The notes under the pieces are model-generated. The model was not told the origin of the DNA. It saw only the letters and a program-made list of their open reading frames with translations, and searched no databases. Shown here piece after piece: positions 13,267 through 32,266 of a DNA stretch of 32,454 nucleotides (its first letter is position 1; the number at the start of each line of letters is the position of its first letter). The position numbers and the translations under genes were made by a program. This DNA comes from Candidatus Aenigmatarchaeota archaeon. Its GTDB lineage: Archaea > Aenigmatarchaeota > Aenigmatarchaeia > QMZP01. Where the stretch lies: the NCBI GenBank assembly GCA_016783545.1, contig JADHWJ010000010.1, positions 1 to 32,454 on the forward strand, given 5' to 3'.

Positions 13267-14370
13267 TTACCTTTCTCTTTCGCCTTTTATGAACTCTTCT
13301 AGCATCTCTCTTGCAACTGTATCAGGGAATTGTGTCATTGGATGTTTCATTGTGTAAGAAGATATTGATGTCAGCTCACCTGATAGACCTCTGTCCATAC
13401 CAAGTTTGCAGCATCTTATTCCATCTATTGAACAGCCTGCTGAGTTTGGAGAGTCTTCCACGTCAAGTCTTAGTTCGAGACTGATTGGAACATCACCGAA
13501 TTTTCTTCCTTCTAATCTTAGGAAGCATAATTTCTTATCATTCAACCATGGTACATGGTCAGATGGACCAATGTGTATGTTTTCAGGTGCCAGTGGAACA
13601 GGAAGCTGTGATTGAACAGATGAAGACTTGCTCTCTCTTTTTGATTTCAATCTTTCTTCTCCTTCTTTCATGTTAAGGAAGTCTGTGTTTCCACCAACAT
13701 TAAGCTGGTAGGTTCTCTCAACTTTAACACCTCTATCTGAGAATAATTTTGCAAGGGTTCTGTGTGTGATTGTTGCTCCGATCTGCGCCTTAATGTCATC
13801 ACCCACTATTGGAAGTCCCTTATCTTTGAACTTCTTTTCCCATTCAGGATTTGAAGCAATGAAAACAGGCATACAGTTAACCAGTCCAACACCAGCCTCT
13901 AAACACGCATTTGCATAGTATTCGGTTGCCTGCTGTGAACCTACAGGCATATAATTAATAAGAACCTCTGCTCCGGAGTTTTTCAGTTCCTTTGCAACAT
14001 TAATAGCTGCACCGTCAGAAACTCTGAAACTTCTATTTTCATCATAATCACCCATGTGAGAAGCAACACCATCAAGAACAGGACCCTTTTTAACTTCTAC
14101 ACCAAGATTTGGAATGTCTTTCTGAAAAATTATTGTATTGTTTGGTTTTGCAAGAATTGCCTCAGAAAGATCTTTTCCTACTTTTCTTCTATCAATATCA
14201 AAAGCAGCTACAGGTTTTAGGTCTGATATCTTGTATCCGCCTATCACATTATGCATAAGACCTGGAACAAGATCGTCGTTTGATGCTACATCTTTATAGT
14301 AGAATAATCCCTGTATAAGACTAGATGCACAATTTCCAACTCCTGCAATAGCGACTTTAATTTCTTTCAT
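13267..14370 (-). CDS. ino1: Inositol-3-phosphate synthase
   Basis: A 367-residue enzyme converting glucose 6-phosphate to L-myo-inositol 1-phosphate with NAD+. The Rossmann motif is AIAGVGNCASSLIQG at the N-terminus, and the catalytic region includes VGDDIKAQIGATITHRTLAK and QLNVGGNTDFLNM. Length and motifs match the archaeal/actinobacterial clade. The ATG at 14370 is used because an AGGT site lies seven bases upstream; an in-frame TTG at 14376 is less likely. It diverges from a CDP-alcohol transferase gene; together they would supply archaetidylinositol lipids. Two palindromic operators lie between them. Confidence 0.95.
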   Translation of the reverse strand: MKEIKVAIAGVGNCASSLIQGLFYYKDVASNDDLVPGLMHNVIGGYKISDLKPVAAFDIDRRKVGKDLSEAILAKPNNTIIFQKDIPNLGVEVKKGPVLDGVASHMGDYDENRSFRVSDGAAINVAKELKNSGAEVLINYMPVGSQQATEYYANACLEAGVGLVNCMPVFIASNPEWEKKFKDKGLPIVGDDIKAQIGATITHRTLAKLFSDRGVKVERTYQLNVGGNTDFLNMKEGEERLKSKRESKSSSVQSQLPVPLAPENIHIGPSDHVPWLNDKKLCFLRLEGRKFGDVPISLELRLDVEDSPNSAGCSIDGIRCCKLGMDRGLSGELTSISSYTMKHPMTQFPDTVAREMLEEFIKGERER

Positions 14371-14447
14371 AATCAAAACCTGTTGTTAATTTACAAGTTC
14401 TGTTAATTTGATCCGGTTTTAATGAATCCACGAACAAAACCTGGATA

Positions 14448-14463
14448 TTTTACAATTGTAAAA
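14448..14463. promoter_or_regulatory. Operator 1, TTTTAC-N4-GTAAAA palindrome
   Basis: TTTTACAATTGTAAAA is a perfect 16-bp palindrome in the divergent promoter between ino1 and the CDP-alcohol transferase. It lies about 78 bases before the ino1 ATG and about 59 before the other start. The same half-sites recur at 14500-14515 and, degenerate, before the PadR-like gene, so it is most likely a regulator binding site. Confidence 0.75.
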
Positions 14464-14495
14464 CACTTTACTTTATTTATGGACATAAAGCTTTA

Positions 14496-14519
14496 TATAT
14501 TTTACGGTCGTAAAATATA
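14496..14519. promoter_or_regulatory. Operator 2, overlapping the promoter of the CDP-alcohol transferase
   Basis: A 24-bp palindrome with 11-base arms around a central GT. Its core is TTTTACGGTCGTAAAA (14500-14515). It overlaps the TATA-like TTTATATATT (14492-14501) and ends two bases before the ATG at 14522. A bound regulator would cover both TATA box and transcription start. Confidence 0.8.
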
Positions 14520-14521
14520 AT

Positions 14522-15124
14522 ATGGCCTATAAAGAACAAGATAGAAAAAAAGTAAGAATGTTTTCTGTAAAGACTGGGATATATTTTAGTAAGATAATGA
14601 CTTCACCAAATAAATGGACACTTGTTAGTTTAATACCAGCAATATTGGCTTTTTATTTTCTGATAAATGAGCGTTTCCTTTTAACAGCAATCATGTTTGT
14701 TTTGTTTAGTTTCCTTGATTTAGTTGATGGTTCTGTTGCAAGAGTAACAGGAAAGGTAACAAAGCTAGGTGCATATCTAGATACAATAGTTGATAGGTAT
14801 GTTGAAGCCATAATAATCTTTGGATTATTGTTTGCCAGCCTGCCAAATTTCATTTTCCCTATATACATATGGGTATTTTTAGCTCTGTTCGGTGCAATGA
14901 TGACCACATATGCAAAATCAGCAACAGCTGAAAAAGAGCTAATGAAAGAACACCCAGGAAGCTTTTTTGACAGAGCAGAAAGATTGGTTCTGTTATTTGT
15001 TGGTATATTACTTGCAATAGTAGATCCATTATTCCTAAGCTATATCTTAGTATTGTTTGCTATATTGACAAATCTGTCAGCATTGCAAAGAATTAAAATA
15101 GCAGTAAGATCTACAAAAGAATAA
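14522..15124 (+). CDS. CDP-alcohol phosphatidyltransferase (probable archaetidylinositol-phosphate synthase)
   Basis: An integral membrane enzyme of 200 residues with about five to six helices. The complete family signature is present: D66-x2-D69-G70-x2-A73-R74-x8-G83-x3-D87-x3-D91, which binds metal and CDP. Members join CDP-activated lipid to an alcohol. The divergent ino1 gene makes inositol 1-phosphate the likely acceptor, giving archaetidylinositol phosphate. That substrate is inferred from context. The mRNA is probably nearly leaderless because the TATA box lies about 25 bases before the ATG. Operator 2 overlaps this promoter. Confidence 0.92.
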   Translation: MAYKEQDRKKVRMFSVKTGIYFSKIMTSPNKWTLVSLIPAILAFYFLINERFLLTAIMFVLFSFLDLVDGSVARVTGKVTKLGAYLDTIVDRYVEAIIIFGLLFASLPNFIFPIYIWVFLALFGAMMTTYAKSATAEKELMKEHPGSFFDRAERLVLLFVGILLAIVDPLFLSYILVLFAILTNLSALQRIKIAVRSTKE

Positions 15125-15140
15125 TTTTATAGTTGTAAAA
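15125..15140. promoter_or_regulatory. Operator 3, degenerate copy before the PadR-like gene
   Basis: TTTTATAGTTGTAAAA matches the TTTTAC-N4-GTAAAA pattern with one change in the left half. It starts at the stop codon of the preceding gene and ends 12 bases before the ATG at 15153, overlapping the place expected for the PadR-like promoter. Confidence 0.65.
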
Positions 15141-15152
15141 CAATAATTATAT

Positions 15153-15455
15153 ATGGACCCGCTGGAAAGACTGGTTGACAAGAATACAAAAGAAAATCTC
15201 TGGCTCTATGTTCTTAGAATACTAAGAGATAGCCCTTCACATGCATATACACTCAGAAAAAACATAGATGAAAGGTTTGGCTTTATGCCAGGCAATGTGA
15301 CTGCCTACAGGGTTCTCTACCAATTAAAGCTAAGAGACCTTGTCTCAAAAAACAAAGAAGGAAGAAAAAAGGTCTATTCCATTACGCCAAAAGGAATAGA
15401 AACACTGAAAAAAGCAGTTGAATTCTTCGATGAGAGAACAGAGATGCTTAAATAG
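15153..15455 (+). CDS. PadR-family transcriptional regulator
   Basis: A 100-residue winged-helix protein matching the PadR N-terminal domain: NLWLYVLRILRDSPSHAYTL, the helix NIDERFGFMPGNVTAYRVLY, LKLRDLVSK and the wing GRRKVYSITPKGIETL. It has the short form with a single C-terminal helix for dimerisation. Operator 3 lies directly upstream and near-identical sites lie at ino1 and the CDP-alcohol transferase. I infer that it controls itself and inositol-lipid synthesis. The effector is unknown. Confidence 0.88.
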   Translation: MDPLERLVDKNTKENLWLYVLRILRDSPSHAYTLRKNIDERFGFMPGNVTAYRVLYQLKLRDLVSKNKEGRKKVYSITPKGIETLKKAVEFFDERTEMLK

Positions 15456-15475: not shown

Positions 15476-15772
15476 ATGTATCATTCTTCAATATCAGATG
15501 AAAGAGAAAGAAAAGTTGTTGATTTAGTGCATACAAATGCTAATAAAAAGGTTGACAAAGACCAGATAACCGCTGAAACACCATTTTCTGATTTAGAGAT
15601 TTATGGTGAAGACAAAGTGGGGATTTTAGTAGATATTGATGAAGAATTTGATATAGTACTAGATGATCCAAGTTATATACATAGTGATGATTGGGTAACT
15701 GTTGGTGATGCATTTGAATATGCAGCAAAACATTCTGATAAAGAACAAACTGCTGTTACCAAAAGCGATTAA
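15476..15772 (+). CDS. Acyl-carrier-like protein lacking the carrier serine
   Basis: A 98-residue acidic protein with the four-helix ACP pattern: ISDERERKVVDLVHTNANKK, TPFSDLEIYGEDKVGILVDI, DEEFDIVLDD and DDWVTVGDAFEYAAKH. In ordinary carriers helix II begins with Asp-Ser-Leu, whose Ser bears phosphopantetheine. Here the aligned triplet is D46-K47-V48, so the prosthetic group cannot attach. It may be a structural or regulatory relative. It follows the PadR-like gene by 20 bases and may be co-transcribed with it, which hints at a lipid link. Confidence 0.7.
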   Translation: MYHSSISDERERKVVDLVHTNANKKVDKDQITAETPFSDLEIYGEDKVGILVDIDEEFDIVLDDPSYIHSDDWVTVGDAFEYAAKHSDKEQTAVTKSD

Positions 15773-16776: not shown

Positions 16777-17032
16777 CCTTTAAAAGTACTAATTCTACTA
16801 ATTATTTTATCTGAACGTAATATTCGCTCTCAAAGGCAATTTTACTATCTTTCGTATATTCAGAACTAACAACGTGTTGGTTCTCTAGAGAATAGTAGTT
16901 TTCTTACTTTTAGGACTATTTCTTAAATCATTTTAACTGTCTGGGAATAGTCTTGAGTAGAAAGGAGTGCTTATCGAAGCAAAAATTGTATTGGCATTTT
17001 ATAGACATGGCGCGCACTTTGAGGAGAATGTG

Positions 17033-18058
17033 ATGGCAAGACCGGTGACGTTGTTTACGGGTCAGTGGGCAGATCTCCCATTGGCAACACTGGCGGAGAA
17101 GGCGGCAGGTTGGGGATACGAGGGGTTGGAGCTTGGCTGCTGGGGCGATCACATGGACGTACGCAAAGGCGCCGAGAGCAAGGAGTACTGTGACGGACAG
17201 AAGGCCATTCTCGAAGCGAACGGGCTAGAAGTTTGGGCCATCAGCAACCATCTAGCCGGCCAGCTTGTGCTCGACAACATTGAGCCACGCCACATGCAGT
17301 TCTGCGGCGACGAAGCGATCACCACAGAATTCGAGGAGGCAGGCTACATCACGCCCGAAATCGAGAGAGCCGTTCACGAGTGGGCCATCGAAGAGATGAA
17401 GTGCACAGCCCGGGCGGCCAGGAATCTCGGAGTCGAGGTGGTCTGTGGTTTCACCGGCAGTTCGATCTGGCACATGATCTATTCGTTCCCGCCAGTCGAT
17501 GATGCGGACATTGATGCCGGCTTCGAGTTGCTACTCGAGCGGTGGGATCCAATTCTCGATGTCTTCGAGGAATGCGGTGTCATGTTCGGTCTCGAGGTGC
17601 ACCCTACTGAGATTGCGTATGATATCGTGACTGCTGCACGCGCGATCGATGCCCTGGGAGACCGCGAAGAGTTCGGATTCAACTTCGATCCGAGCCATCT
17701 TCAATGGCAGAGCGTGGATCCGGTTTGTTTCATTAAGGAGTTCAGCGACCGGATCTATCATGTCCATATGAAGGACTGCGCTGTCACACTCAACGGTCGC
17801 GCAGGAATCCTGAGCTCACATCTGAACTTCGGCGACCCGAACCGGGGCTGGGACTTTCGGTCACTCGGTCGCGGCGACGTTGAGTTCGAGGAGATCATCC
17901 GGACCCTCAACCAGATCGGATACAATGGCCCGCTCTCGGTAGAGTGGGAGGACAGCGGCATGGACCGAGAGCACGGCGCTGCCGAGGCCTGCAAGTTCGT
18001 GAAGGAGATAGACTTCCCGCCGAGCGAGCAGGCATTCGACGCCGCTTTCGATGAGTAG
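17033..18058 (+). CDS. Sugar phosphate isomerase/epimerase-like TIM-barrel protein
   Basis: A 341-residue protein of the AP_endonuc_2/xylose-isomerase-like TIM superfamily. Probable metal and catalytic residues are E188 and H190 (GLEVHPTE), D219 and H222 (NFDPSHL), H243 and H245 (YHVHMKD) and E304 (LSVEWEDSGMD). The ATG at 17033 has GAGGAG six bases upstream; the in-frame GTG at 16967 abuts its ribosome-binding-like sequence and is unlikely. The neighbouring oxidoreductase suggests joint catabolism of a sugar or polyol. Such pairs are common in bacterial sugar-use operons. The specific sugar is unknown. Confidence 0.88.
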   Translation: MARPVTLFTGQWADLPLATLAEKAAGWGYEGLELGCWGDHMDVRKGAESKEYCDGQKAILEANGLEVWAISNHLAGQLVLDNIEPRHMQFCGDEAITTEFEEAGYITPEIERAVHEWAIEEMKCTARAARNLGVEVVCGFTGSSIWHMIYSFPPVDDADIDAGFELLLERWDPILDVFEECGVMFGLEVHPTEIAYDIVTAARAIDALGDREEFGFNFDPSHLQWQSVDPVCFIKEFSDRIYHVHMKDCAVTLNGRAGILSSHLNFGDPNRGWDFRSLGRGDVEFEEIIRTLNQIGYNGPLSVEWEDSGMDREHGAAEACKFVKEIDFPPSEQAFDAAFDE

Positions 18059-18072
18059 TTTCTGAATCGTTG

Positions 18073-18103
18073 TAACAGGGCTCTCTGGACCGGGGCCCTG
18101 TTA
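18073..18103 (+). terminator. Hairpin between the two island B genes
   Basis: TAACAGGGC (18073-18081) pairs perfectly with GCCCTGTTA (18095-18103), 15 bases after the stop. It lacks a T-run, so it may attenuate or protect an mRNA end rather than terminate fully. Confidence 0.45.
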
Positions 18104-18148
18104 TCACCTCTCTTGAATCAATGTTGGACAATGGAGGGTTAGAAACCC

Positions 18149-19384
18149 ATGATAAGTTTTCCAGATAGAGTGCCTGACCAGATCAGAGTGGGGCTTGTTG
18201 GACCAGGTCCTGAGGCGTTTATTGTTCAGCACCACATAAACGCCATGAGGGAAACAGGTCTGTTCGACATCACCGGAGCGGTCTGCCAGAACGCGAAGTT
18301 TTGCGGATGGACGGCGAAGAACCTTCGTATACCCGAGTCGCGGGTGGATCTCAATCTCAATTGGCTACTCCACAAAGTCGCTCTGATGGAGGAGACACCT
18401 GATATCATCGATATTGCCACGCCGACACATCTGCATGCCGAGCAGGTCATGCTTGCGCTGGATCACGTCGACATGGTTGTCTGCGACAAACCCCTGGTTA
18501 CGACATGGAAGGAATTCTGCGCGATCAGGGACAAGATGGACACTAGTCAGAGTATCGTCATCACATACAATCATCGTTTCTTCGAGCCTGTTCAACGGCT
18601 CCGGGCGATGGTCAATGACGCAAAATCCATTGGCTGTGACATTGACAACGTGTCGAGTTGGTTCTTTCAACAATGGCTCCTGGAGGACCCAAAGAACCGA
18701 CAGAGTGCCTGGCGGAAGGTCCACCCACTCGGCGGGGCATGGGACATCTGGACCCATGCGTACGACCTCATGAGTACGGTTCTCGGTTGCGATGGCGTCG
18801 ATGTCAGTGAATCTTCGCTGGTGCAGAATGGTGCTCATGGCGGCGCTGCCCTTGATACAGGGGATTGTATCGTGACCTTTGGTGATGACCGTCAGGCGAA
18901 TATCGGGTTCTCCCAGGCGAAAGAGGGACATCAAGACGACATTGGTAGCATGCTCCGTATCGAAGGTGTTTGGTGGATGTGGCGCCTGGAGATGAGCGGC
19001 GGGGACGTGCTCTGGATGTCAACAGCGCCCGAGCCCAGCCCCTGGAACATGGGAGACTGGAAGCCGATCTTCCGTGGGTCAGAAGAGGCCTTCAAATATG
19101 AAGAGAGTGCGGCCTTCGAGAAGACACCGCCGGGGCATTCGATGGGCTGGCCGGATGCCTGGTACACCCTCTGGGCGTCGATCGCTGGTTACTATTATCA
19201 GGTGTTCACTCCTGAATTCGGGACGGACAATCTCCACCCAGCGATGCTGCTCGACATACCGCTTATGGATGAAGGCGGCGAGCAGATCACCAAGTTCGTG
19301 CTGGCTGCTGCCAAATCATTCGAACAGGAAGGTGCGGATGTGAGCTTCAAGTCGATCGAAGAGGAAGATGATGAAGCTGAGTAG
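18149..19384 (+). CDS. Gfo/Idh/MocA-family oxidoreductase
   Basis: A 411-residue NAD(P)-dependent dehydrogenase family member. The N-terminal Rossmann fold has GLVGPGPEAF (15-24), IDIATPTHLHAEQVMLAL and CDKPL (112-116), the equivalent of the EKP motif. The C-terminal domain has GGAWDIWTHAYDL (195-207), carrying the usual catalytic Asp and His. GGAGGG precedes the ATG by about 11 bases. It follows the TIM-barrel gene by 90 bases and ends before an intrinsic terminator, forming a two-gene unit. The substrate is probably a sugar, inositol or derivative. The acidic tail (EEEDDEAE) is unusual. Confidence 0.9.
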   Translation: MISFPDRVPDQIRVGLVGPGPEAFIVQHHINAMRETGLFDITGAVCQNAKFCGWTAKNLRIPESRVDLNLNWLLHKVALMEETPDIIDIATPTHLHAEQVMLALDHVDMVVCDKPLVTTWKEFCAIRDKMDTSQSIVITYNHRFFEPVQRLRAMVNDAKSIGCDIDNVSSWFFQQWLLEDPKNRQSAWRKVHPLGGAWDIWTHAYDLMSTVLGCDGVDVSESSLVQNGAHGGAALDTGDCIVTFGDDRQANIGFSQAKEGHQDDIGSMLRIEGVWWMWRLEMSGGDVLWMSTAPEPSPWNMGDWKPIFRGSEEAFKYEESAAFEKTPPGHSMGWPDAWYTLWASIAGYYYQVFTPEFGTDNLHPAMLLDIPLMDEGGEQITKFVLAAAKSFEQEGADVSFKSIEEEDDEAE

Positions 19385-19417
19385 CACCAACCTTCAGACG
19401 AATCCAGAAAGTTCGTC

Positions 19418-19449
19418 AGCACAGATACGACGTTGTGTCTGTGCTTTTT
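19418..19449 (+). terminator. Rho-independent-type terminator of island B
   Basis: AGCACAGA (19418-19425) and TCTGTGCT (19438-19445) form a perfect 8-bp stem that can extend by about three further pairs. A TTTTT run (19445-19449) follows at once. This is the classic bacterial arrangement, 33 bases after the oxidoreductase stop. Confidence 0.85.
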
Positions 19450-19522
19450 ATTGTCGTGTAAGAGGGATAAAACAACAATAAAACCTTTAAAAATATTATT
19501 CTAATATTCTTTATATTGTAGA

Positions 19523-19542
19523 AATTACTTTCAAAAGTAATT
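19523..19542. repeat. Inverted repeat in the AT-rich spacer between islands B and C
   Basis: AATTACTTT and AAAGTAATT are separated by two bases. It could be an operator or recombination site for the downstream small-protein operon, but it could also be chance in AT-rich DNA. Confidence 0.35.
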
Positions 19543-19657
19543 CTATTATCACTAGCTTTTTTCTATTCAGAGAGAACCAGAGACTTTTTCAGGGTCAGCA
19601 CTATTTCTCAGGAAATCTAAGTGTCCCTGGAAGGTCTTGTGTTTAGGGGAAGAAAAG

Positions 19658-19816
19658 ATGGATGTTGTTATCATGATGCTTTTCTTCGCGTTCGTTGTAC
19701 TAACATTCTTGTCAGTGAACATGGCATCGTTTGGTATTCTCATTTCCACAGCTATTCTTGGCGGGATCTTGATAGTATGGATTTCTTCAATAGCATTCGT
19801 GCGTCGGTTTTTGTGA
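19658..19816 (+). CDS. Small membrane protein 1 (52 aa)
   Basis: The frame starts at an ATG preceded by AGGGGA. It encodes two hydrophobic helices (about residues 3-20 and 24-46) and a short basic end (FVRRFL). There is almost no soluble part. The stop overlaps the ribosome-binding site GAGGAG of the next gene. It is the first of four consecutive tiny membrane proteins. The family is not recognised. Confidence 0.6.
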   Translation: MDVVIMMLFFAFVVLTFLSVNMASFGILISTAILGGILIVWISSIAFVRRFL

Positions 19817-19825
19817 GGAGATGAC

Positions 19826-19942
19826 ATGGAAGGCAACGGATACAAAAAGCATTACAGGCAGATAGTTGTCCGATGGGAGGTTACGGCTGTTGTGCTTCTG
19901 GCACTGTTCGCTGGGATTTTCATGATCTATTGGCTATGTTAG
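19826..19942 (+). CDS. Small membrane protein 2 (38 aa)
   Basis: The ATG at 19826 has GAGGAG upstream. The product has a basic N-terminus (GYKKHYRQIVVRW) and one membrane helix (VTAVVLLALFAGIFMIYWL). By the positive-inside rule the N-terminus faces the cytoplasm. The stop overlaps the GGGGGAG ribosome-binding site of the next gene, indicating coupled translation. Confidence 0.55.
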   Translation: MEGNGYKKHYRQIVVRWEVTAVVLLALFAGIFMIYWLC

Positions 19943-19950
19943 GGGGAGCC

Positions 19951-20109
19951 ATGAAGCGGATAACGAACATATTTCCGATCGGTGCAGGAACGATACTTGT
20001 TGGGGCTGTAGTTGCCGAGCGATGCTCTGTCGTTGGCACTGCTATCGCACTGGTAGGTGCTGCGATGATCGTGGTCGGCATTATTATGGTCATCCGAAAT
20101 TCGACATGA
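19951..20109 (+). CDS. Small membrane protein 3 (52 aa)
   Basis: The ATG at 19951 follows GGGGGAGCC. Two Gly/Ala/Val-rich helices (IFPIGAGTILVGAVVA and VVGTAIALVGAAMIVVGIIM) are joined by a short Arg-Cys turn. The high glycine and alanine content suggests tight helix packing. The family is not recognised. It is part of the same run of tiny membrane genes. Confidence 0.6.
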   Translation: MKRITNIFPIGAGTILVGAVVAERCSVVGTAIALVGAAMIVVGIIMVIRNST

Positions 20110-20124
20110 TTTGGAGACAATGAC

Positions 20125-20277
20125 ATGTTTCCATTCGACCGAAGAAAAAGGGTACGACTGCAGATGCGGTGTATCATTATAGCCGCCATAGCCATACTCT
20201 TTCTGATATTCTTTGTCTTTAATAACAGTGGGAGCTGTGAACTGCAGAGAGTTGACCCATCACAGTTTGGCGGGTGA
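20125..20277 (+). CDS. Small membrane protein 4 (50 aa)
   Basis: Starts at the ATG at 20125, with a GGAG about nine bases upstream. A strongly basic N-terminus (FDRRKRVRLQMR) precedes one membrane helix (CIIIAAIAILFLIFFVF), and a short C-terminal tail carries one Cys (SGSCELQRVDPSQ). The predicted topology puts the tail outside. A lipobox is not evident. The ACP gene follows 33 bases later. Confidence 0.55.
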   Translation: MFPFDRRKRVRLQMRCIIIAAIAILFLIFFVFNNSGSCELQRVDPSQFGG

Positions 20278-20310
20278 AGTGAAAATCAACTGTACCGAAA
20301 GGAGGGACCA

Positions 20311-20583
20311 ATGTCCGAGAGAGTAGAGGACCAACTGAAGGAGATGATTGTCGATCGGCTGTTCCTCCAGATCTCGCCTGATGAGATTGGCGATGAGACT
20401 GATCTGGTGGAGACACACGAAGTTGATTCAGTCCAGCTCCTGGAGATTGTCATGGGGCTGGAAGAGGTGTTTGGCGTTTCGTTCGATGATGAAGAGTTCA
20501 GCCTGGAGATATTCGCGACAGTCAGCAGCATCGCAGATGCTGTCCGGGCAAAGCTCAAAGGAGAAACCGATGGGGAAGACTAA
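20311..20583 (+). CDS. Acyl carrier protein
   Basis: A 90-residue carrier protein. The phosphopantetheine site is D39-S40-V41 in ETHEVDSVQLLEIV, followed by the typical GLEEVFGVSFDDEE and a last helix (VSSIADAVRAKLKG). AAAGGAGGGACC lies directly before the ATG. Unlike the archaeal-type relative at 15476, it keeps the serine. No fatty-acid or polyketide genes accompany it; it sits between small membrane proteins and a zinc-ribbon protein, so it may be a dedicated carrier for an unknown thioester product. Confidence 0.88.
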   Translation: MSERVEDQLKEMIVDRLFLQISPDEIGDETDLVETHEVDSVQLLEIVMGLEEVFGVSFDDEEFSLEIFATVSSIADAVRAKLKGETDGED

Positions 20584-20929
20584 GGCTGAGATGAAGCTGA
20601 TTCACCGTAAGAAACGAAGGAATAGACGTCCGACCAAGGGCCTCATGAGAAGGGAGCGTCGTGCAAGGGAGGCAGGATATTCTAGCCTGGCTGAGTATGT
20701 TCAGAAGGTGGGCAAGCCCAGGGAGAAGGTTTCGTATTTTTACGAACCGCCCAAACCAACTCCGAAAGCCCCAGAACCTCCGAAGCCCAAGTCAACTTCT
20801 AACACGAGACAGTTCAAGTGTACGTGGGGGGAATGCAAGGGGAACATATTCACGGCAAAATCCTCAGTGGGTGGTGGAATGCCGGAGTGTCCGAGATGTG
20901 GCTCATCTATAGATGTACACGCAGCCTGA
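20570..20929 (+). CDS. Basic zinc-ribbon protein (119 aa)
   Basis: The ATG at 20570 overlaps the ACP end by 14 bases and has AAAGGAG upstream inside that gene. The N-terminus (1-55) is very basic (HRKKRRNRRPTKG, MRRERRAREAGY). A proline-rich linker (PPKPTPKAPEPPKPK) follows, then a C-terminal zinc ribbon with C84, C89, C107 and C110. The layout suggests a nucleic-acid-binding protein. The family is not recognised. Overlap with the ACP gene implies coupled expression. Confidence 0.75.
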   Translation: MGKTKAEMKLIHRKKRRNRRPTKGLMRRERRAREAGYSSLAEYVQKVGKPREKVSYFYEPPKPTPKAPEPPKPKSTSNTRQFKCTWGECKGNIFTAKSSVGGGMPECPRCGSSIDVHAA

Positions 20930-20944
20930 TAAGGAGGAGAACCA

Positions 20945-21178
20945 ATGCCTGGATTTGAAGGTGACGGGCACTACGAATGCGTGGTAGTGCCAGATGTGGA
21001 AGGGGCATTCGAGGTCGGTGAACTCTACTACGCATTCGAGGAAGGTAGCGCCGTCATGGTTTATGACGATGCGCATGGCGATATCGAGTTCACTGAGGAA
21101 GAGTTCGAGCGCTGCTTCGAGGTTGACGAGCTCGACGACGACGCGCCGGAGGGCGACCCTGCGTTGGTTGACAAATAG
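20945..21178 (+). CDS. Small acidic protein (77 aa)
   Basis: AAGGAGGAG lies just before the ATG. The protein is highly acidic (FTEEEFERCFEVDELDDD) with a likely small beta-rich fold at the start (HYECVVVPDVEG, then FEVGELYYAFEEGSAVMVYD). Acid content contrasts with the preceding basic zinc-ribbon protein. The family is not recognised. Confidence 0.65.
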   Translation: MPGFEGDGHYECVVVPDVEGAFEVGELYYAFEEGSAVMVYDDAHGDIEFTEEEFERCFEVDELDDDAPEGDPALVDK

Positions 21179-21199
21179 GCAAATCCCTACGTACCGTAG

Positions 21200-21880
21200 G
21201 AAAAGAAGGAGGATGTTTCGACCTCTACGACGTTCGTGTTGGTCGCGTCTGACGGTGAACGGCGATTTCTACACACAATGGGCGCGAACGCTGTTTTCTG
21301 TGCCGAAGACGTGAACATGGAGATTGTCAAGCAGGCCAAGATTCTTCACGTGGCCGGTACGTACCTCATGCCCACATTCGACGGCGAACAGACCGCAGAG
21401 ATTCTGCGGCAAGCCAGGGAGGATGGTGTTCGCACTTGTCTGGATACCGCCTTCAACGACCGGCTCGATGAGCAAGCGTGGCGGGATGGGATCTTCCCAT
21501 GTCTGCCTTATCTGGATTTCTTTGTGCCCTCAATGGAGGAAGCGGAAGAGATTACGGGCAAAAGCGATCCCGCGAAGATGGCAGCAGTCTGTCATGACAA
21601 AGGCTGCGAGATCGTCTGCATCAAGATGGGAGGAGAAGGGTGCTATGTCTCAGACAGTGGTCACGGCATCCAAATCCCGAAGTTCGATGTCGAGGCCAAG
21701 GATACGTCCGGCGCCGGAGACTGCTGGTGCGCAGGATTCCTGAAAGGCGTGCTCGAAGGCTGGCCTCTCGAAGAGTGCGGACGATTCGGTAATGCTGTGG
21801 CGGCCTTTGGTGTCCAAGCCATTGGCTGTAGCACAGGCGTGACATCATTTGACGAGATCAAGGAGTTCATGAGTTCATAG
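21200..21880 (+). pseudogene. PfkB-family sugar kinase, 5'-truncated
   Basis: The C-terminal two thirds of a ribokinase/PfkB kinase. The open frame begins after a stop at 21197-21199 and enters mid-domain at DVSTSTTFVLVASDGERRF. It keeps the ATP-site and anion-hole motif DTSGAGDCWCAGFL with the catalytic Asp, but about the first 100 residues, including much of the substrate site, are missing. The only in-frame starts (GTG at 21236, later ATGs) lack a proper ribosome-binding site and give about 214 residues against roughly 310 expected. A short palindrome (CCTACG-TAC-CGTAGG, 21186-21200) sits exactly at the break. It is probably a dead gene or a junction artefact. Confidence 0.8.
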
Positions 21881-21973
21881 TTTCAGAAAGGAGGAAAGCA
21901 GCATCCTGGATGTTTTACATGTTACGTCCCTGAATGAGGTGGGGAGTACCTTGAGTAGAAGGAGAGACTGAAA

Positions 21974-23668
21974 ATGGGAGAACTCATTGAGTTGAACCCA
22001 GGTCCGACGAGCCCATTGCCTCTAAAAGTAGGGGCATTTGGGACGTTTGACAAGCGTCTGTCGAAAGAATCGGACAGGACTCGTGCACAGAATATCGTGA
22101 GAGACGGTGCACAGGTCTTGGCCGACGGCCTTCGGACGATCGACGGCAAGCCAGTAGAAGTTGTGTGGAGTCCTTTGATGGTACAGGACGAGATCACAGC
22201 AGATCAGCTTGCCAGGATGTTCATCGAGCAAGGCGTTCGGGCTCTTGTATGTCTGCCTGATACGTGGGCATGGCCACAGAAGACTCTGTTGAGCTTCTTG
22301 GCTCATTTCCCAAGAAAGACCCCGATCGGCTTAACCTGCGGTAATGCAGGCCCTAAGCCGGGAGTGGTCTTTGCGCACGCGAGTTGCGGTGCATTGGCTC
22401 AGTCGGGTATTCTCATGGGCCTGAACGTTGGTACGTGGCCTGACACAGGGATTCGTCCCAAGATGACCCCGGAAACGGCTGAAGCCATGCTGGATTGGGG
22501 ACAAGCAGCCATTACCTACACTGGACTGAGGGGAAGACGGGTGGTCGAGTGGGGTCACGACAGCATGGGCATGGAGACTGCGCTGGCTCATGTCATCCCG
22601 ACGCGAACCCAGTTCGGGCTCGAAATCACGCGTATGGACATGAAGCTCCTGGCTGACTTGCTTCAGAAGGACGATGGGTATGACAAGAGCGAGCTGAAGG
22701 GTCTGGAAGACTGGATGTATGAGAAGTTGGGAGACAGGATCCAGATCCGCGACGAGGCCGACAAGGAACGATTCAAGACCATGCTGAAAATGTACCTCAT
22801 CGTACGCAACATCATGGAGGAGGTCAATGCCATCGGTGGGGGGTTTATGTCTCAGCTCCCCTGGGGGTCTGATCCTCGGGGAACCCCACTCCCGGTCGCG
22901 GATGCCATGGAATCCCTGTTCAATTCCACTTTCGACCATCGCGGCCCAAAGCCCCCCACTCCTTACGCCACGGAGAAGGATACGCAGGGGTTGCTCACCA
23001 TGATCTTCTTCACCGGCCTCAGCGGCGGCGGACCACCTCTTTTCATGGACTTCCGGAAGGTCTGGGAGCCATGGGAGATCAAGAAGGTCGCTAGGGAGAT
23101 GGGGATTCCTTATGAAGGGGAGCCTTGGGCAGAAAGAGGATTCGTCGACGGCGACAATAGCGGTTCGGCGTCGTTCGACTGGGCTGAGAAGCCTGGTGCT
23201 TCGCCTGATGAGTGTATGGCGCGCATAAGCATGCCACAGGCGGATCCGGACTACTTCCCAGGCCGCGGTAACAGCGTGACATTCTTCACTCCCGGCGGCG
23301 TCGAAGGAGTGGCTGGAAGGCTCGCGTATTTCCAGCCGACAGACGAATTCACGCTCTTCTGGGATGATGCGGAGACCTTCGAATTACCAGAGCCTCTGGC
23401 AGAGAAGGTGGCTTCCACATCCACCAAGGAATGGCCTCATACGTTCGTTGGCTTCAAGAGGGCTAATATGGGCCAGGCTAAGCAGTTCGGATGCCCAGCC
23501 AATCATTTCAAGCTGATAGCGAACTTGATGCCGGCGCGTGTTGAGCACTTCTTGGATATCTCCGGAATCCGCAACATGAATGCCATTGCGTGGCCGGAGA
23601 TTAGAGAAGGGCATCGGCCGGTACCACTCATCAAGATGTTGAATGGTGCTGTGCCGCCTGCACCGTAA
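21974..23668 (+). CDS. L-fucose/L-arabinose isomerase-like protein
   Basis: The 564 residues have the layout of the FucI/AraA-type ketol-isomerase superfamily: an N-terminal domain (LKVGAFGTFDKRL, then EVVWSPLMVQDEITAD), a middle domain with VEWGHDSMGMETA (192-203) and FGLEITRMD (214-222), and GGPPLFMDFRKVWEPWE, similar to the conserved segment of FucI. The Mn2+ ligands (Glu, Asp, His in FucI) cannot be assigned with certainty. GGAG sits nine bases before the ATG. Together with the kinase remnant and the island B enzymes it points to deoxy-sugar or pentose metabolism. The substrate is inferred only from family. Confidence 0.8.
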   Translation: MGELIELNPGPTSPLPLKVGAFGTFDKRLSKESDRTRAQNIVRDGAQVLADGLRTIDGKPVEVVWSPLMVQDEITADQLARMFIEQGVRALVCLPDTWAWPQKTLLSFLAHFPRKTPIGLTCGNAGPKPGVVFAHASCGALAQSGILMGLNVGTWPDTGIRPKMTPETAEAMLDWGQAAITYTGLRGRRVVEWGHDSMGMETALAHVIPTRTQFGLEITRMDMKLLADLLQKDDGYDKSELKGLEDWMYEKLGDRIQIRDEADKERFKTMLKMYLIVRNIMEEVNAIGGGFMSQLPWGSDPRGTPLPVADAMESLFNSTFDHRGPKPPTPYATEKDTQGLLTMIFFTGLSGGGPPLFMDFRKVWEPWEIKKVAREMGIPYEGEPWAERGFVDGDNSGSASFDWAEKPGASPDECMARISMPQADPDYFPGRGNSVTFFTPGGVEGVAGRLAYFQPTDEFTLFWDDAETFELPEPLAEKVASTSTKEWPHTFVGFKRANMGQAKQFGCPANHFKLIANLMPARVEHFLDISGIRNMNAIAWPEIREGHRPVPLIKMLNGAVPPAP

Positions 23669-24436: not shown

Positions 24437-24543
24437 AATAAGAGATTCATTTAGTGTATAAAAAGCTTATGTGTGGTATACCTTTGATATATTTATACAA
24501 AAGATCTTAGTTTAGAGAAGAATTTTTTTTACTTTTATAAAAA

Positions 24544-27816: not shown

Positions 27817-28821
27817 ATGCCATTAGAAGGGATAGAAGAAATAATAAAAGAAATTTCAAAGCAAGCAGGAAAGGGCGAAGATGAGATAAAGAAACTTGTT
27901 AAAGAAAAGCAAGAGGAACTATCGGGTTTGGTTTCTGCTGAAGGTGCTGCTTATATAGTTGGAAGAGAACTTGGCGCAAGTCTTATCAAAGAAGGAAGAA
28001 AAGAGCTTAAGATAAAAAATCTTGTTTCTGGTCTGAGAAGCGCTGACCTAACTGCAAAGATCGTAAGAATTTTTGAACCAAAAGAATGGCAGAAGAAAGA
28101 TAAGAAAGGAAAGGTTCAGAGTATTATTCTTGGAGATGAAACAGGTACCATAAGGCTTTCTTTATGGAACGATGAAGTAGGCAAATATAAAATAAATGAT
28201 GGTGATGTTGTTAAAATCAAAGGGGCGTATGTAAAAGAGGGATTTAATGATAATCTTGATATAAGTATAGGAAGAGGAACTCTTGAAAAAACAGATGATA
28301 AGATAGAGGTTTCTGAGAACTTTCAAATCCAGAACACAAACACTGCTAAAAGAACAACTTTAGATGAAGCAAAAGAGGGGATGTTTGGCGAGTTCAGGGC
28401 AAGTCTTGTCCAGATGTTTGCAAGAAAACCTTTTTTTGAGATATGTCCGACATGCGAAACAAAAGTAGAAGAAAACGACGGGAAACGGACATGTTCCGAC
28501 CATGGTGTTGTGGAACCGAAAATAAGGTTGATTGTTTCAGGTGTTATGGATGATGGTTATAATAATATAAGAGCTGTTTTCTTCGCAGAATCAGCAGAAA
28601 AAATTATAGGGAAATCAACAGAAGAGGTAAAAAATTCTTTTAATGAAACAGAAATAGAGAAATTCTACGAGAGCCTTCAGAGTTTGGGAAAAGATTTTAT
28701 AGTGAAAGGTAGGATTAAGATAAACACATTTTCAGAAAAACCAGAGCTTATGGTTAATTCTGTGGAAGATATTAATTTGAAAGCGGAATGTGAAAAGCTA
28801 ATAGGAGACTTAGGTGGTTAA
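27817..28821 (+). CDS. rpa: Replication protein A (single-stranded DNA-binding)
   Basis: A 334-residue archaeal RPA. An N-terminal helical region precedes at least one clear OB fold (about 70-160, with [31 protein letters not shown] and [15 protein letters not shown]). A zinc finger follows, C210-x2-C213 and C226-x2-H229, then another beta-rich region to the end. It coats ssDNA in replication and recombination. GGGAGATGTTAT precedes the ATG. The stop lies just before the radA start, so the two are co-transcribed. Two TTTCCGGAAA palindromes precede the operon. Confidence 0.93.
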
Positions 28822-28822
28822 T

Positions 28823-31800
28823 ATGACAGAAGATGATATTTCAAAACTTCCTGGAGTAGGGGATAAATTTCTGGAAAAACTAAAAGAAGCTGGCTATGAT
28901 AGCTATATGAGCATAGCAGCGGCTTCTGCTAGCGAGATAACCAGTGCAACAGGAATAGGCGCAGAAACAGCAAATAAGATAATATCCCAGGCAAGGAAAA
29001 AAATGAAAATGGGATTCGAGTCTGCTACTGATGTTCTAAAAAGAAGGGAAATAGTTGGAAAGATTACAACAGGTAGCAAAACTCTGGACGCAATGCTTGG
29101 TGGTGGAATAGAGACACAGGCCATTACAGAAGCCCATGGGGCGTTTGGTTGTCTAACAGGGGATACTAGAATAACACTTTCAAATGGTAAAATGTTATCT
29201 CTAGGTTCTATGGCTAAAGGATTGAATTCTGGTATATATCCTATAAAAATGCCTGTACTTAGTATGTCTGGAAATTCTATTATAAAAACACACGCAACGA
29301 GTCTTCATGTTTATGATTGTAAATCTGTACTTAAAGTAAATTTACATAATGGTATGGATATATGTGTAACTCCTAATCATCCACTAATGACAGAATTTGG
29401 TTGGAAAGAAGCTGATAAAATATCTATGAATGATAAAATAAAAATAGTTTCTGATAATAATTTTTCTAAAGAAGAATCTCCACTAAATACAGATTTTTTT
29501 GTTTACAAAAACGCAGCAAATACAGTAATACCAAAACTTCCTAAGACATTAACATCTGAACTTGCAGAACTTTTGGGTTTTATAGTTGGTGAAGGTTGGC
29601 GAGAGGTATCAAAACGTAAAAAAGAAGAAAGAATATCAAGAGTTTGTATAGTATCTACAAATAAGAAAATAAAGGAGAGATTTAGAGAACTTGTAAACAG
29701 TGTTTTTGGAATTGAAGCCAATTTGAGATATAAAAGAGAGGGTAAGATAGATGCATATGCAATTGATTCTGTTATTGCGTGTGAATTTATTAAACAATTT
29801 AATGGTGTCTATGAATTAGCAAAGAAAAAACATGTACCATCTCAAATTTTCACGTCTCCAAAAATAGTAGTCTCAAAATTCCTTGCAACATTATATGACG
29901 GTGAAGGTTCAGTTAAAAATGACATAAAAAAGAAAAGGGAAAGAAAAATCTATTGGAAAAGAAAAGATGGTACTAAGAATTATAATTCATATAATTTACC
30001 AAGTTTTGGTAGAGATATAGAATTAAGAAGTTCAAGCAGAAAATTAGTGAAAGATGTTCAAATTCTTCTTACAAAGTTTGGCATAAAAAGTTGGATTAGT
30101 AGTGATATAACGAAACGTGATGGTAGAGAGTTTGTTTGTTTTAAAGTTCATATAACCAATAGAGAAAGCATAGAGAAATTTTATGATGATATTGGTGTTT
30201 ATACTATACGTTTGAGAGACAGTATAGAAAACGCAATGGAAAGTTATAAAAGAAAAATGAAGATAAAAGCAAACGATTTTATAAATATAAAATTAATTGA
30301 AAAAGTGAATACTACCGATGGTAAAGTTTATGATTTAGAAGTTCCAAAGTTTCATAATTTTTTGGCTGATAATATACTTTCTCATAATTCGGGAAAAAGC
30401 CAGGTTGGATTCCAATTATCTGTAAATGTTCAATTACCAAAAGAAAAAGGCGGACTTGGTGGCAAGGCCCTTTTTGTTGATTCAGAGAATACATTCCGAC
30501 CTGAACGGATAATGGAGATAGCAAAGGCTGCTGGTTTAGATCCAAAGAAATCTCTAGATAATATATTCACCGGACGTGCGTACAATAGCTTGCCTGCTAA
30601 TGAAAATGTCTATGTGTTAAATGATGAAAATTTTCATAAGAGAGAAATAGGTGATTTAGTTGAAAATAATAAAGGTAAAAAGATTCTTACATTTTCATTT
30701 AATCCAGAAAATGGAAAAATGAATTGTTCTGAGGTAACAGCGTTTATAAAACATAGAACACCTGAAAACGAATATCTTTGTAAAATAAAAACACGTTTTG
30801 GAAGAGAAATAACTGTTACTGGTTCTCATTCTTTATTTAAGGGTGTTAGGATAGGAAAAAGAGGAAAGGAAACAGTGTTTGAGGTTAAAGGTAATATGAG
30901 ACCTACTGTAGTAGAGGCATCTGAATTAAATGTAGGTGATCATGTGACTATCCCAAAGAATTTACCAATGAAAGAAAAAGACATAAATGAAATTAATCTC
31001 TCTAAAAAACTGAGAAAAGTAAAGAAAATTTCAAAAGAGATAATCTTTGAGAAAAATATAATAAAATTAGCCCATACAGGAAGAATGAAATCACCAGAAA
31101 TACCCAAAAAAATAAAAATAGATAAAGATATTTTGTGGCTGCTTGGGTTTGCAATTGCAGAAGGTAATTCCCAATACAAAGACCGTCTTGTAAGGACAAG
31201 ATTGTTTTCTGAGACTAAATACCTTGAAAAGGCACACAAAATAATAAAAGAGAAATTCAATATAAATTCCCATCTTCATAAAAAGCTTCATACATTGTTG
31301 ATATCAAGTCGCTTATTTTCACTTATCATGGTAGAATGTTTTGGTATACGAATAGATAAAACATCTGTTAAGAGAAATGTACCAGAATGGATATTCCAAC
31401 TTCCTTGTGAAAAAATCAAACACTTCCTAAAGGGTTATTGGGATGGTGATGGATATCATGGAAAAAACAGAAGAAAAAATAGGTTAATTTTCTGTACATC
31501 AAGTAGACAGCTAGCAAATGATATATCAATGTTGCTTTTACGATTTGAAATTATAGGTTCCATCATTAAGATAAATGTCAAAAATAGAGAGTCATATAAA
31601 CCGCATTGGAATACTCCATATAAGATTGAGGCAGCTGGCTTATCGCACAACAATCCATTAGATCTGGAAGAAATGGAGCAGAATTTAAATGCCCCTTCAT
31701 GGAATGATCTTGTTTTCGCAAAAATAAAGTCAATAGAAAAAACACCTGCAAATGAAGAAAGTGTATATGATTTGGAAGTACATTCCTCAAAAGCTCCATT

Positions 31801-32266
31801 TGAAAACTTTTTGGGCGGGTTTGGTGGAGTATGCTGTCACAATTCGGATCATCAGATACTTTTGATAGATAATGCAGAGGAAATAATAAAGAAAGAAAAT
31901 ATTAAGATTATTATTGTAGATTCTCTTACATCTGCTTTCAGATCAGATTATACAGGAAGAGGAACTCTAGCAGACAGGCAACAAAAACTAAACAGACATT
32001 TGCATAAACTGCAAAGGCTTGCTGATGTCCATAATCTAGCTATATTTGTAACAAACCAGGTGATGTCAAGACCTGATATTCTTTTTGGTGACCCAACAGC
32101 GCCCATTGGAGGGCATATAGTAGGTCATCAGGCAATGTTCAGAATCTATCTCAGAAAATCCAAAGCAGAAAAGAGAATTGCTAAATTGATTGATTCGCCG
32201 TCTTTACCAGAATCTGAAACAGTTTTCGCTGTCACAAAAGAAGGCGTCAGGGATATTAAGGAATAA
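28823..32266 (+). CDS. radA: RadA recombinase with two inteins
   Basis: The 1147-residue precursor has exteins 1-109, 523-588 and 1008-1147 that would splice to a 315-residue RadA. The N-terminal helix-hairpin-helix domain has [18 protein letters not shown]. Walker A (GAFG|SGKSQ) is split by intein 1 and the AYN|SDHQ segment by intein 2. Walker B is [13 protein letters not shown]. RadA forms the strand-exchange filament of homologous recombination. The ATG at 28823 follows AGGTGG, one base after the rpa stop. Without splicing of both inteins the P-loop and ATPase core would be broken. Confidence 0.97.
29150..30388 (+). mobile_element. Intein 1 in RadA (Walker A site), LAGLIDADG type
   Basis: A 413-residue intein. 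It begins with Cys ([14 protein letters not shown]), has block B TPNHPLM and ends LADNILSHN before Ser+1. Two LAGLIDADG motifs, [11 protein letters not shown] and [12 protein letters not shown], indicate a homing endonuclease domain with both catalytic acidic residues. Insertion between Gly and Ser of the P-loop is a known RadA intein site in thermococci. Confidence 0.95.
30587..31843 (+). mobile_element. Intein 2 in RadA (AYN|S site), Ser1 type with LAGLIDADG motifs
   Basis: A 419-residue intein starting with Ser ([15 protein letters not shown]) instead of Cys. Block B is VTGSHSLFK, and the end is GGVCCHN before Ser+1. LAGLIDADG motifs are LLGFAIAEG and [11 protein letters not shown]. Block F/G ([19 protein letters not shown]) is intact. 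It splits the segment after motif RAYN, before SDHQILLID. Both nuclease motifs keep acidic residues. Confidence 0.93.

Follow-up and report, generated by a model that had tools for sequence, protein, structure and literature searches.

In Streptomyces coelicolor, the gene of the regulator InoR lies beside inoA, which encodes myo-inositol-1-phosphate synthase (MIPS) (InoR/InoA, SCO3900/SCO3899; Zhang et al. 2012, as cited in PMC4255298 and PMC7581861). The archaeal locus described here resembles this arrangement of a regulator gene adjacent to its MIPS target; InoR is bacterial, and the likeness seen in these citing papers is that of gene position. In mycobacteria, a PadR-like gene is co-transcribed with ino1 (PMC3899939); this gene is NapM (Rv0047c; PMC6377630), as is MSMEG_6903, and deletion of napM in M. 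smegmatis is described as raising ino1 and inositol-phosphate metabolism (PMC13340245). NapM thus shares with the archaeal regulator a PadR-family gene tied to ino1, but it is of a longer PadR type (182 residues), has been investigated for its broad effects as a nucleoid-associated protein, and in the portions of the NapM literature consulted carries no reported link to a CDP-alcohol transferase or to a TTTTAY-type operator. The NapM structure (8jxk) matched the profile of the archaeal protein with an E value of 0.003, ranking behind ~45 other PDB chains, mainly of PadR proteins. Given the longer type and this weak match, we treat the archaeal protein as one that works like NapM rather than as a demonstrated ortholog. 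InoR, for its part, is reportedly relieved by glucose-6-phosphate.

The Corynebacterium regulator IpsA, as described in PMC3899939, controls ino1 for inositol-derived lipids via palindromes, two of which lie in the ino1 promoter, with myo-inositol as effector; it is needed for the formation of these lipids, its loss is rescued by ino1 expression, and it has several other targets. Control of ino1 by palindromes is thus shared with the archaeal PadR-like protein, whereas the protein family (LacI type) is unrelated. LmrR and other short PadR proteins (PadR subfamily 2, ~100 to 115 residues) have the same fold, a winged helix with a C-terminal dimer helix; LmrR differs in sensing drugs and controlling an exporter, and structural matches show ~20 to 24% identity. 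MIPS genes of Pseudonocardia and Sphingomonas plasmids have no PadR neighbor in the incomplete gene table of PLSDB.

Transcriptional control of archaeal polar-lipid synthesis is poorly known. That control of inositol lipids in archaea is little described, as an earlier note on this DNA had remarked, agrees with our searches of the open-access literature, in which nothing relevant was found. A local PadR regulator with palindromic operators is of a kind already known; for such a regulon of archaeal inositol-lipid genes, and for its operator, there seems to be no earlier description.

The inositol-lipid locus and its palindromes

The window (the whole stretch of 32,454 nucleotides analyzed) comes from an archaeal genome of 886 kb that is ~70% complete. 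The features considered here are as follows.

13267–14376, minus strand: ino1, encoding MIPS (PF01658 and TIGR03450 profiles)
14448–14463, no strand: putative operator 1, TTTTACAATTGTAAAA, the ino1-side member of a pair (sequence pattern)
14491–14499, plus strand: TATA box of the transferase, CTTTATATA, abutting operator 2
14500–14515, no strand: putative operator 2, TTTTACGGTCGTAAAA, core of a 24-bp element, between the TATA box and the start codon
14522–15124, plus strand: CDP-alcohol phosphatidyltransferase, candidate archaetidylinositol-phosphate synthase (PF01066, NF040950, signature)
15125–15140, no strand: putative operator 3, TTTTATAGTTGTAAAA, within the 28-bp gap before the PadR-like gene
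15153–15455, plus strand: PadR-like winged-helix regulator, 100 residues, short PadR type (PF03551, AlphaFold, Foldseek)

The gene order is ino1, transferase, PadR, so that PadR lies two genes from MIPS. The ino1 product passes the Pfam cut-off for PF01658 (114.8 bits versus 27) and scores 444 bits against TIGR03450, under the cut-off of 638; its likelier start is the ATG at 14370, six bases within the TTG-started ORF. The transferase passes the PF01066 cut-off (65.1 bits versus 22), and its ORF holds the CDP-alcohol signature D-x2-DG-x2-AR-x8-G-x3-D-x3-D as DLVDGSVARVTGKVTKLGAYLDTIVD. Its top NCBIfam match is NF040950 (archaetidylinositol-phosphate synthase), at 128.5 bits against an equivalog cut-off of 180; judged from its sequence, the enzyme is probably an archaetidylinositol-phosphate synthase.

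The PadR-like protein passes the PF03551 cut-off (42.5 bits versus 27), and the named records that match it best are mostly Aenigmatarchaeota MAGs. Its AlphaFold model (mean pLDDT 93.8) has helices at residues 3 through 12, 16 through 26, 31 through 42 and 48 through 60, strands at 64 through 69 and 72 through 77, and a C-terminal helix at 79 through 99. This is the PadR fold, a winged helix plus one C-terminal helix, in the short form (PadR subfamily 2, ~110 residues) that has no large C-terminal domain. The best Foldseek matches are PadR structures, including the short-type LmrR, Rv3488 and TA0346. Ten residues (W17, R35, G47, T50, Y52, V54, L55, Y56, Y75 and G81) are invariant in 51 relatives.

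The perfect 16-bp palindrome TTTTAC-N4-GTAAAA reported in the earlier note is present at 14448–14463, where operator 1 extends to TATTTTAC..GTAAAACA. The 24-bp palindrome that the note placed over the TATA box and start of the transferase has to be qualified: the element (14496–14519, TATATTTTACGGTCGTAAAATATA, i.e., TATATTTTAC-GGTC-GTAAAATATA) has two perfect 10-bp arms around an asymmetric central GGTC, and it abuts the TATA box and leaves the start codon uncovered, stopping 2 bp short of the ATG at 14522. The one-mismatch copy described before the PadR-like gene was recovered at 15125 with a single C-to-T change, and ino1 and the transferase are indeed divergent, with both exact copies between them.

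Palindromes of this kind might arise by chance or be promoter or terminator elements of a generic AT-rich kind: AT content is ~65% in the archaeal part of the window, and the seven matches found in the window with up to two mismatches are no significant excess over the 4.1 expected. Since the relaxed pattern is not significant within the window, comparison with relatives was needed. The strict form TTTTAC-N4-GTAAAA was fixed beforehand from the window, and the genome-wide search suggested by the note found only three exact copies in 886 kb, two of them the window pair at 14448 and 14500. The third (L005 5083, equal to G000:C13:100082) is a 26-bp perfect, hairpin-like palindrome, GAAAATTTTACAGCTGTAAAATTTTC; it was dropped as a regulon target, being non-coding, at a contig end, without an Rfam family and without a downstream gene within the contig.

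With Y and R allowed at positions 6 and 11, letters taken from the same relatives that are analyzed below, the genome holds nine sites versus three for the reversed pattern. Six of the nine lie outside the regulon: three are within long ORFs (on contigs C2, C8 and C12), one (30277) falls within the RadA ORF of the window, and the remaining two are non-coding and lack the regulon flanks T-R...Y-A, the site at 24527 being among those without flanks. As the genome is ~70% complete, further targets could be missed.

Conservation of the palindromes in relatives

One hundred related genomes were searched with each protein, together with public genome contigs, giving ~150 loci, many of them overlapping; the relatives are Aenigmatarchaeota and other archaea, represented by MAGs of incomplete genomes. 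The PadR ortholog adjoins MIPS in most loci, with 46 to 61% identity in nearer relatives. Typically, PadR and ino1 are divergent and the transferase lies behind ino1; PadR was within 400 bp of MIPS and divergent from it in 21 of 30 loci. One genome (G016) has the gene order of the window with sites at the same promoters, and another (G003) has the divergent layout with the other MIPS type.

The intergenic regions of the relatives carry the same palindrome, usually twice and mostly 36 to 52 bp apart. The consensus of 36 sites is TRTTTTAY-A-NN-T-RTAAAAYA, in which positions 2 through 5 of the 16-bp core are invariant. Full-consensus sites number 32 in 30 PadR upstream regions (5.9 kb; shuffle mean 0.02) and are absent from a further 22 kb of these loci. 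Among 28 ino1 promoters, 27 have the palindrome (23 with a spacer of four, three with three, one with five) and the remaining one has a 10/12 match; shuffled promoters gave 0.4 (N4 form). In the PadR upstream regions and ino1 promoters, the reversed N4 pattern gave zero or one. In 27 kb of coding sequence there were no N4 sites and one match with spacers of three, five or six. Reversed promoters gave four matches when spacers of three, five and six were all allowed, so single sites with a spacer other than four are weaker evidence than N4 sites.

Of the 156 genomes of the class, 15 have the paired-site pattern, once each (reversed control, 0 of 156). On inspection of all 15 loci, PadR and MIPS directly flank the pair in 13; the window itself (pair between ino1 and the transferase) accounts for one, and in the last the pair lies beside PadR at a contig end. 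The pattern thus has a single target in the genomes scanned. It also survives rearrangement: in two genomes (G009 and G010), ino1 is unlinked from PadR yet keeps its site pair, their PadR genes having no clear site. In several others, ino1 is replaced by a distant MIPS type (~440 residues, 24 to 28% identity), and the divergent PadR gene and paired operators are kept. Against an origin by chance or as generic elements stand dozens of sites where reversed-pattern, shuffle and coding controls are near zero, and their persistence at MIPS promoters through rearrangement and enzyme replacement; the comparative data already contradict such an origin, to which we assign practically no weight.

The earlier note would have counted loss of the palindromes in relatives with the same gene order against its reading; this check did not refute it, as the palindromes have been kept along with the PadR-like gene and MIPS in the class and outside it. 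The triad of PadR, MIPS and operators is also found in Nitrososphaerota, Bathyarchaeota, Altiarchaeota, Diapherotrites and others. In a group of Nitrososphaerota whose PadR and ino1 genes share one direction, no site was found upstream of PadR. Five such loci (L132, L138, L141, L146 and L147) have AAATCGTTAAAACGRCT or a near variant upstream in place of the TTTTAY palindrome.

The sites could instead be read by an unlinked regulator, the PadR-like gene being only a conserved neighbor. Two genomes in which PadR was not found (G002, an 87% complete MAG, and G021, 74%) have ino1 with a site, and PadR genes away from MIPS often lack sites of their own (L050, L052, L057 and L063). Recurrence of the triad across the phyla just listed argues against this, as does the way in which spacer length is distributed among the regulators.

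Spacer length, promoter geometry and predicted control

A spacer of three was found in G008, G012 and G032, a spacer of six in a Diapherotrites record, Aenigmarchaeum, Jingweiarchaeum and one further archaeon, and a spacer of five in one case. The PadR tree groups the spacer-3 proteins with one another in a single clade (support 100/99) and not with the PadRs of their own families. The ino1 tree scatters the three spacer-3 genomes over three positions, and a tree that joins them as one clade is rejected (AU p 1.7e-53). It is thus the regulator, rather than the target or the host, that operator geometry follows. The sites may have adapted after a replacement of the regulator, or the intergenic region may have arrived with it; on both scenarios the PadR protein is the likely reader of the sites. 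Joint transfer of a cassette into the three N3 genomes could reduce the number of independent events, the site still being tied to the regulator. Because spacer 3 goes with a foreign PadR lineage and not with ino1 ancestry, we consider an unlinked reader of the sites very unlikely. An insertion in the PadR wing, seen in the N3 group, was rejected as the sole cause of spacer length: Altiarchaeota and Bathyarchaeota proteins with a wing insertion keep N4.

The PadR-like protein is thus favored as the reader, and the regulon of PadR-like regulator and inositol-lipid genes proposed in the earlier note is, at the level of sequence comparison, strongly supported by the relatives, with spacing that tracks PadR lineage. 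A TATA-like box (TTTATATA, TTTAAATA and similar) runs up to the PadR-side operator, or stops a few bases from it, in 13 of 14 paired regions, and the start codon lies ~1 to 40 bases beyond that operator. The window transferase shares this layout (CTTTATATA-TTTTACGGTCGTAAAA-TATAATATG). From TATA spacing, the other operator of the pair would overlie the start of the opposite promoter. A TATA box abutting one operator of the pair fits repression; a dimer on the sites would block a step after TBP binding, which makes repression the most likely action as judged from position.

The PadR-like protein might instead read the palindromes as an activator or dual regulator, with operator 1, upstream of the transferase TATA box, recruiting initiation factors. 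One operator of each pair does lie upstream of one divergent TATA box, where archaeal activators can act, and the effect of a PadR protein is unreadable from its sequence. Each promoter, however, also has an operator just downstream of its TATA box or, by prediction, over its start, the usual repressing position. Bacterial local PadR proteins are mostly repressors, and ino1 rises on loss of the mycobacterial NapM (PMC13340245). We regard activation or dual control as unlikely.

With good confidence, then, we propose that inositol-lipid synthesis has its own local regulator in the 100-residue PadR-like protein, most likely a repressor, acting through the palindromes. Its dimer would bind the TRTTTTAY-N4-RTAAAAYA palindromes at the promoters of ino1, the archaetidylinositol-phosphate synthase gene and the PadR gene itself, where they are predicted to lie between and over TATA box and transcription start, and would most likely repress by obstructing the machinery of initiation. 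The regulator and the first committed steps (from glucose-6-phosphate via inositol phosphate to archaetidylinositol phosphate) would then be under joint control. A small molecule may serve as inducer or corepressor, candidates being inositol phosphate, glucose-6-phosphate and a CDP-lipid. Autoregulation is probable in the window, where operator 3 occupies the gap ahead of the PadR gene, and is not general: since several moved PadR genes lack sites and unlinked ino1 promoters keep them, the case for it is weaker than that for the MIPS link.

More tentatively, and as a finely balanced proposition, the module may recur in DPANN lineages, Nitrososphaerota and Bathyarchaeota as a unit in which regulator and operators move and change together whichever MIPS is present, the PadR protein sensing an inositol or CDP-lipid intermediate. 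If this is true, archaea would have a transcriptional circuit that balances their membrane head groups. Regulator, operator and target are here jointly predicted in several archaeal phyla, some of whose lineages have no genetics. Spacer-3 and spacer-4 regulators provide a built-in natural test, and a question of membrane composition in uncultured archaea becomes approachable in vitro with a 100-residue protein and short DNA.

Other features of the window and of related loci

Just behind the PadR gene (15476–15772) is an acyl-carrier-like protein with EDKVG at the position of the DSL serine, a replacement that possibly leaves it unable to carry phosphopantetheine. Relatives showed no such gene between PadR and L7Ae, a gap that is usually too small to hold it. 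An island of 50 to 58% GC (16967–23668) interrupts the 33 to 36% GC archaeal contig; it encodes an IolE-like TIM barrel, a Gfo/Idh/MocA dehydrogenase, an acyl carrier protein, an IolC-like PfkB kinase (its ORF lacking the N-terminal part) and an L-fucose-isomerase-like protein. These sugar/inositol-catabolism-like genes were either acquired horizontally or joined in an assembly chimera. A second GC-richer patch (2232–2804, ~45%) encodes a coiled-coil-like protein with a C-terminal hydrophobic stretch and a sub-threshold Pfam match only.

The RadA-like ORF (28814–32266, 1150 residues) apparently contains two inteins (two blocks ending HNS). In three related loci (L108 of G033, G043:C7:118796-121276 and G050:C14:16012-18495), ino1 is split at around residue 229 within one frame of 835 to 845 residues, as expected for an intein in myo-inositol-1-phosphate synthase.
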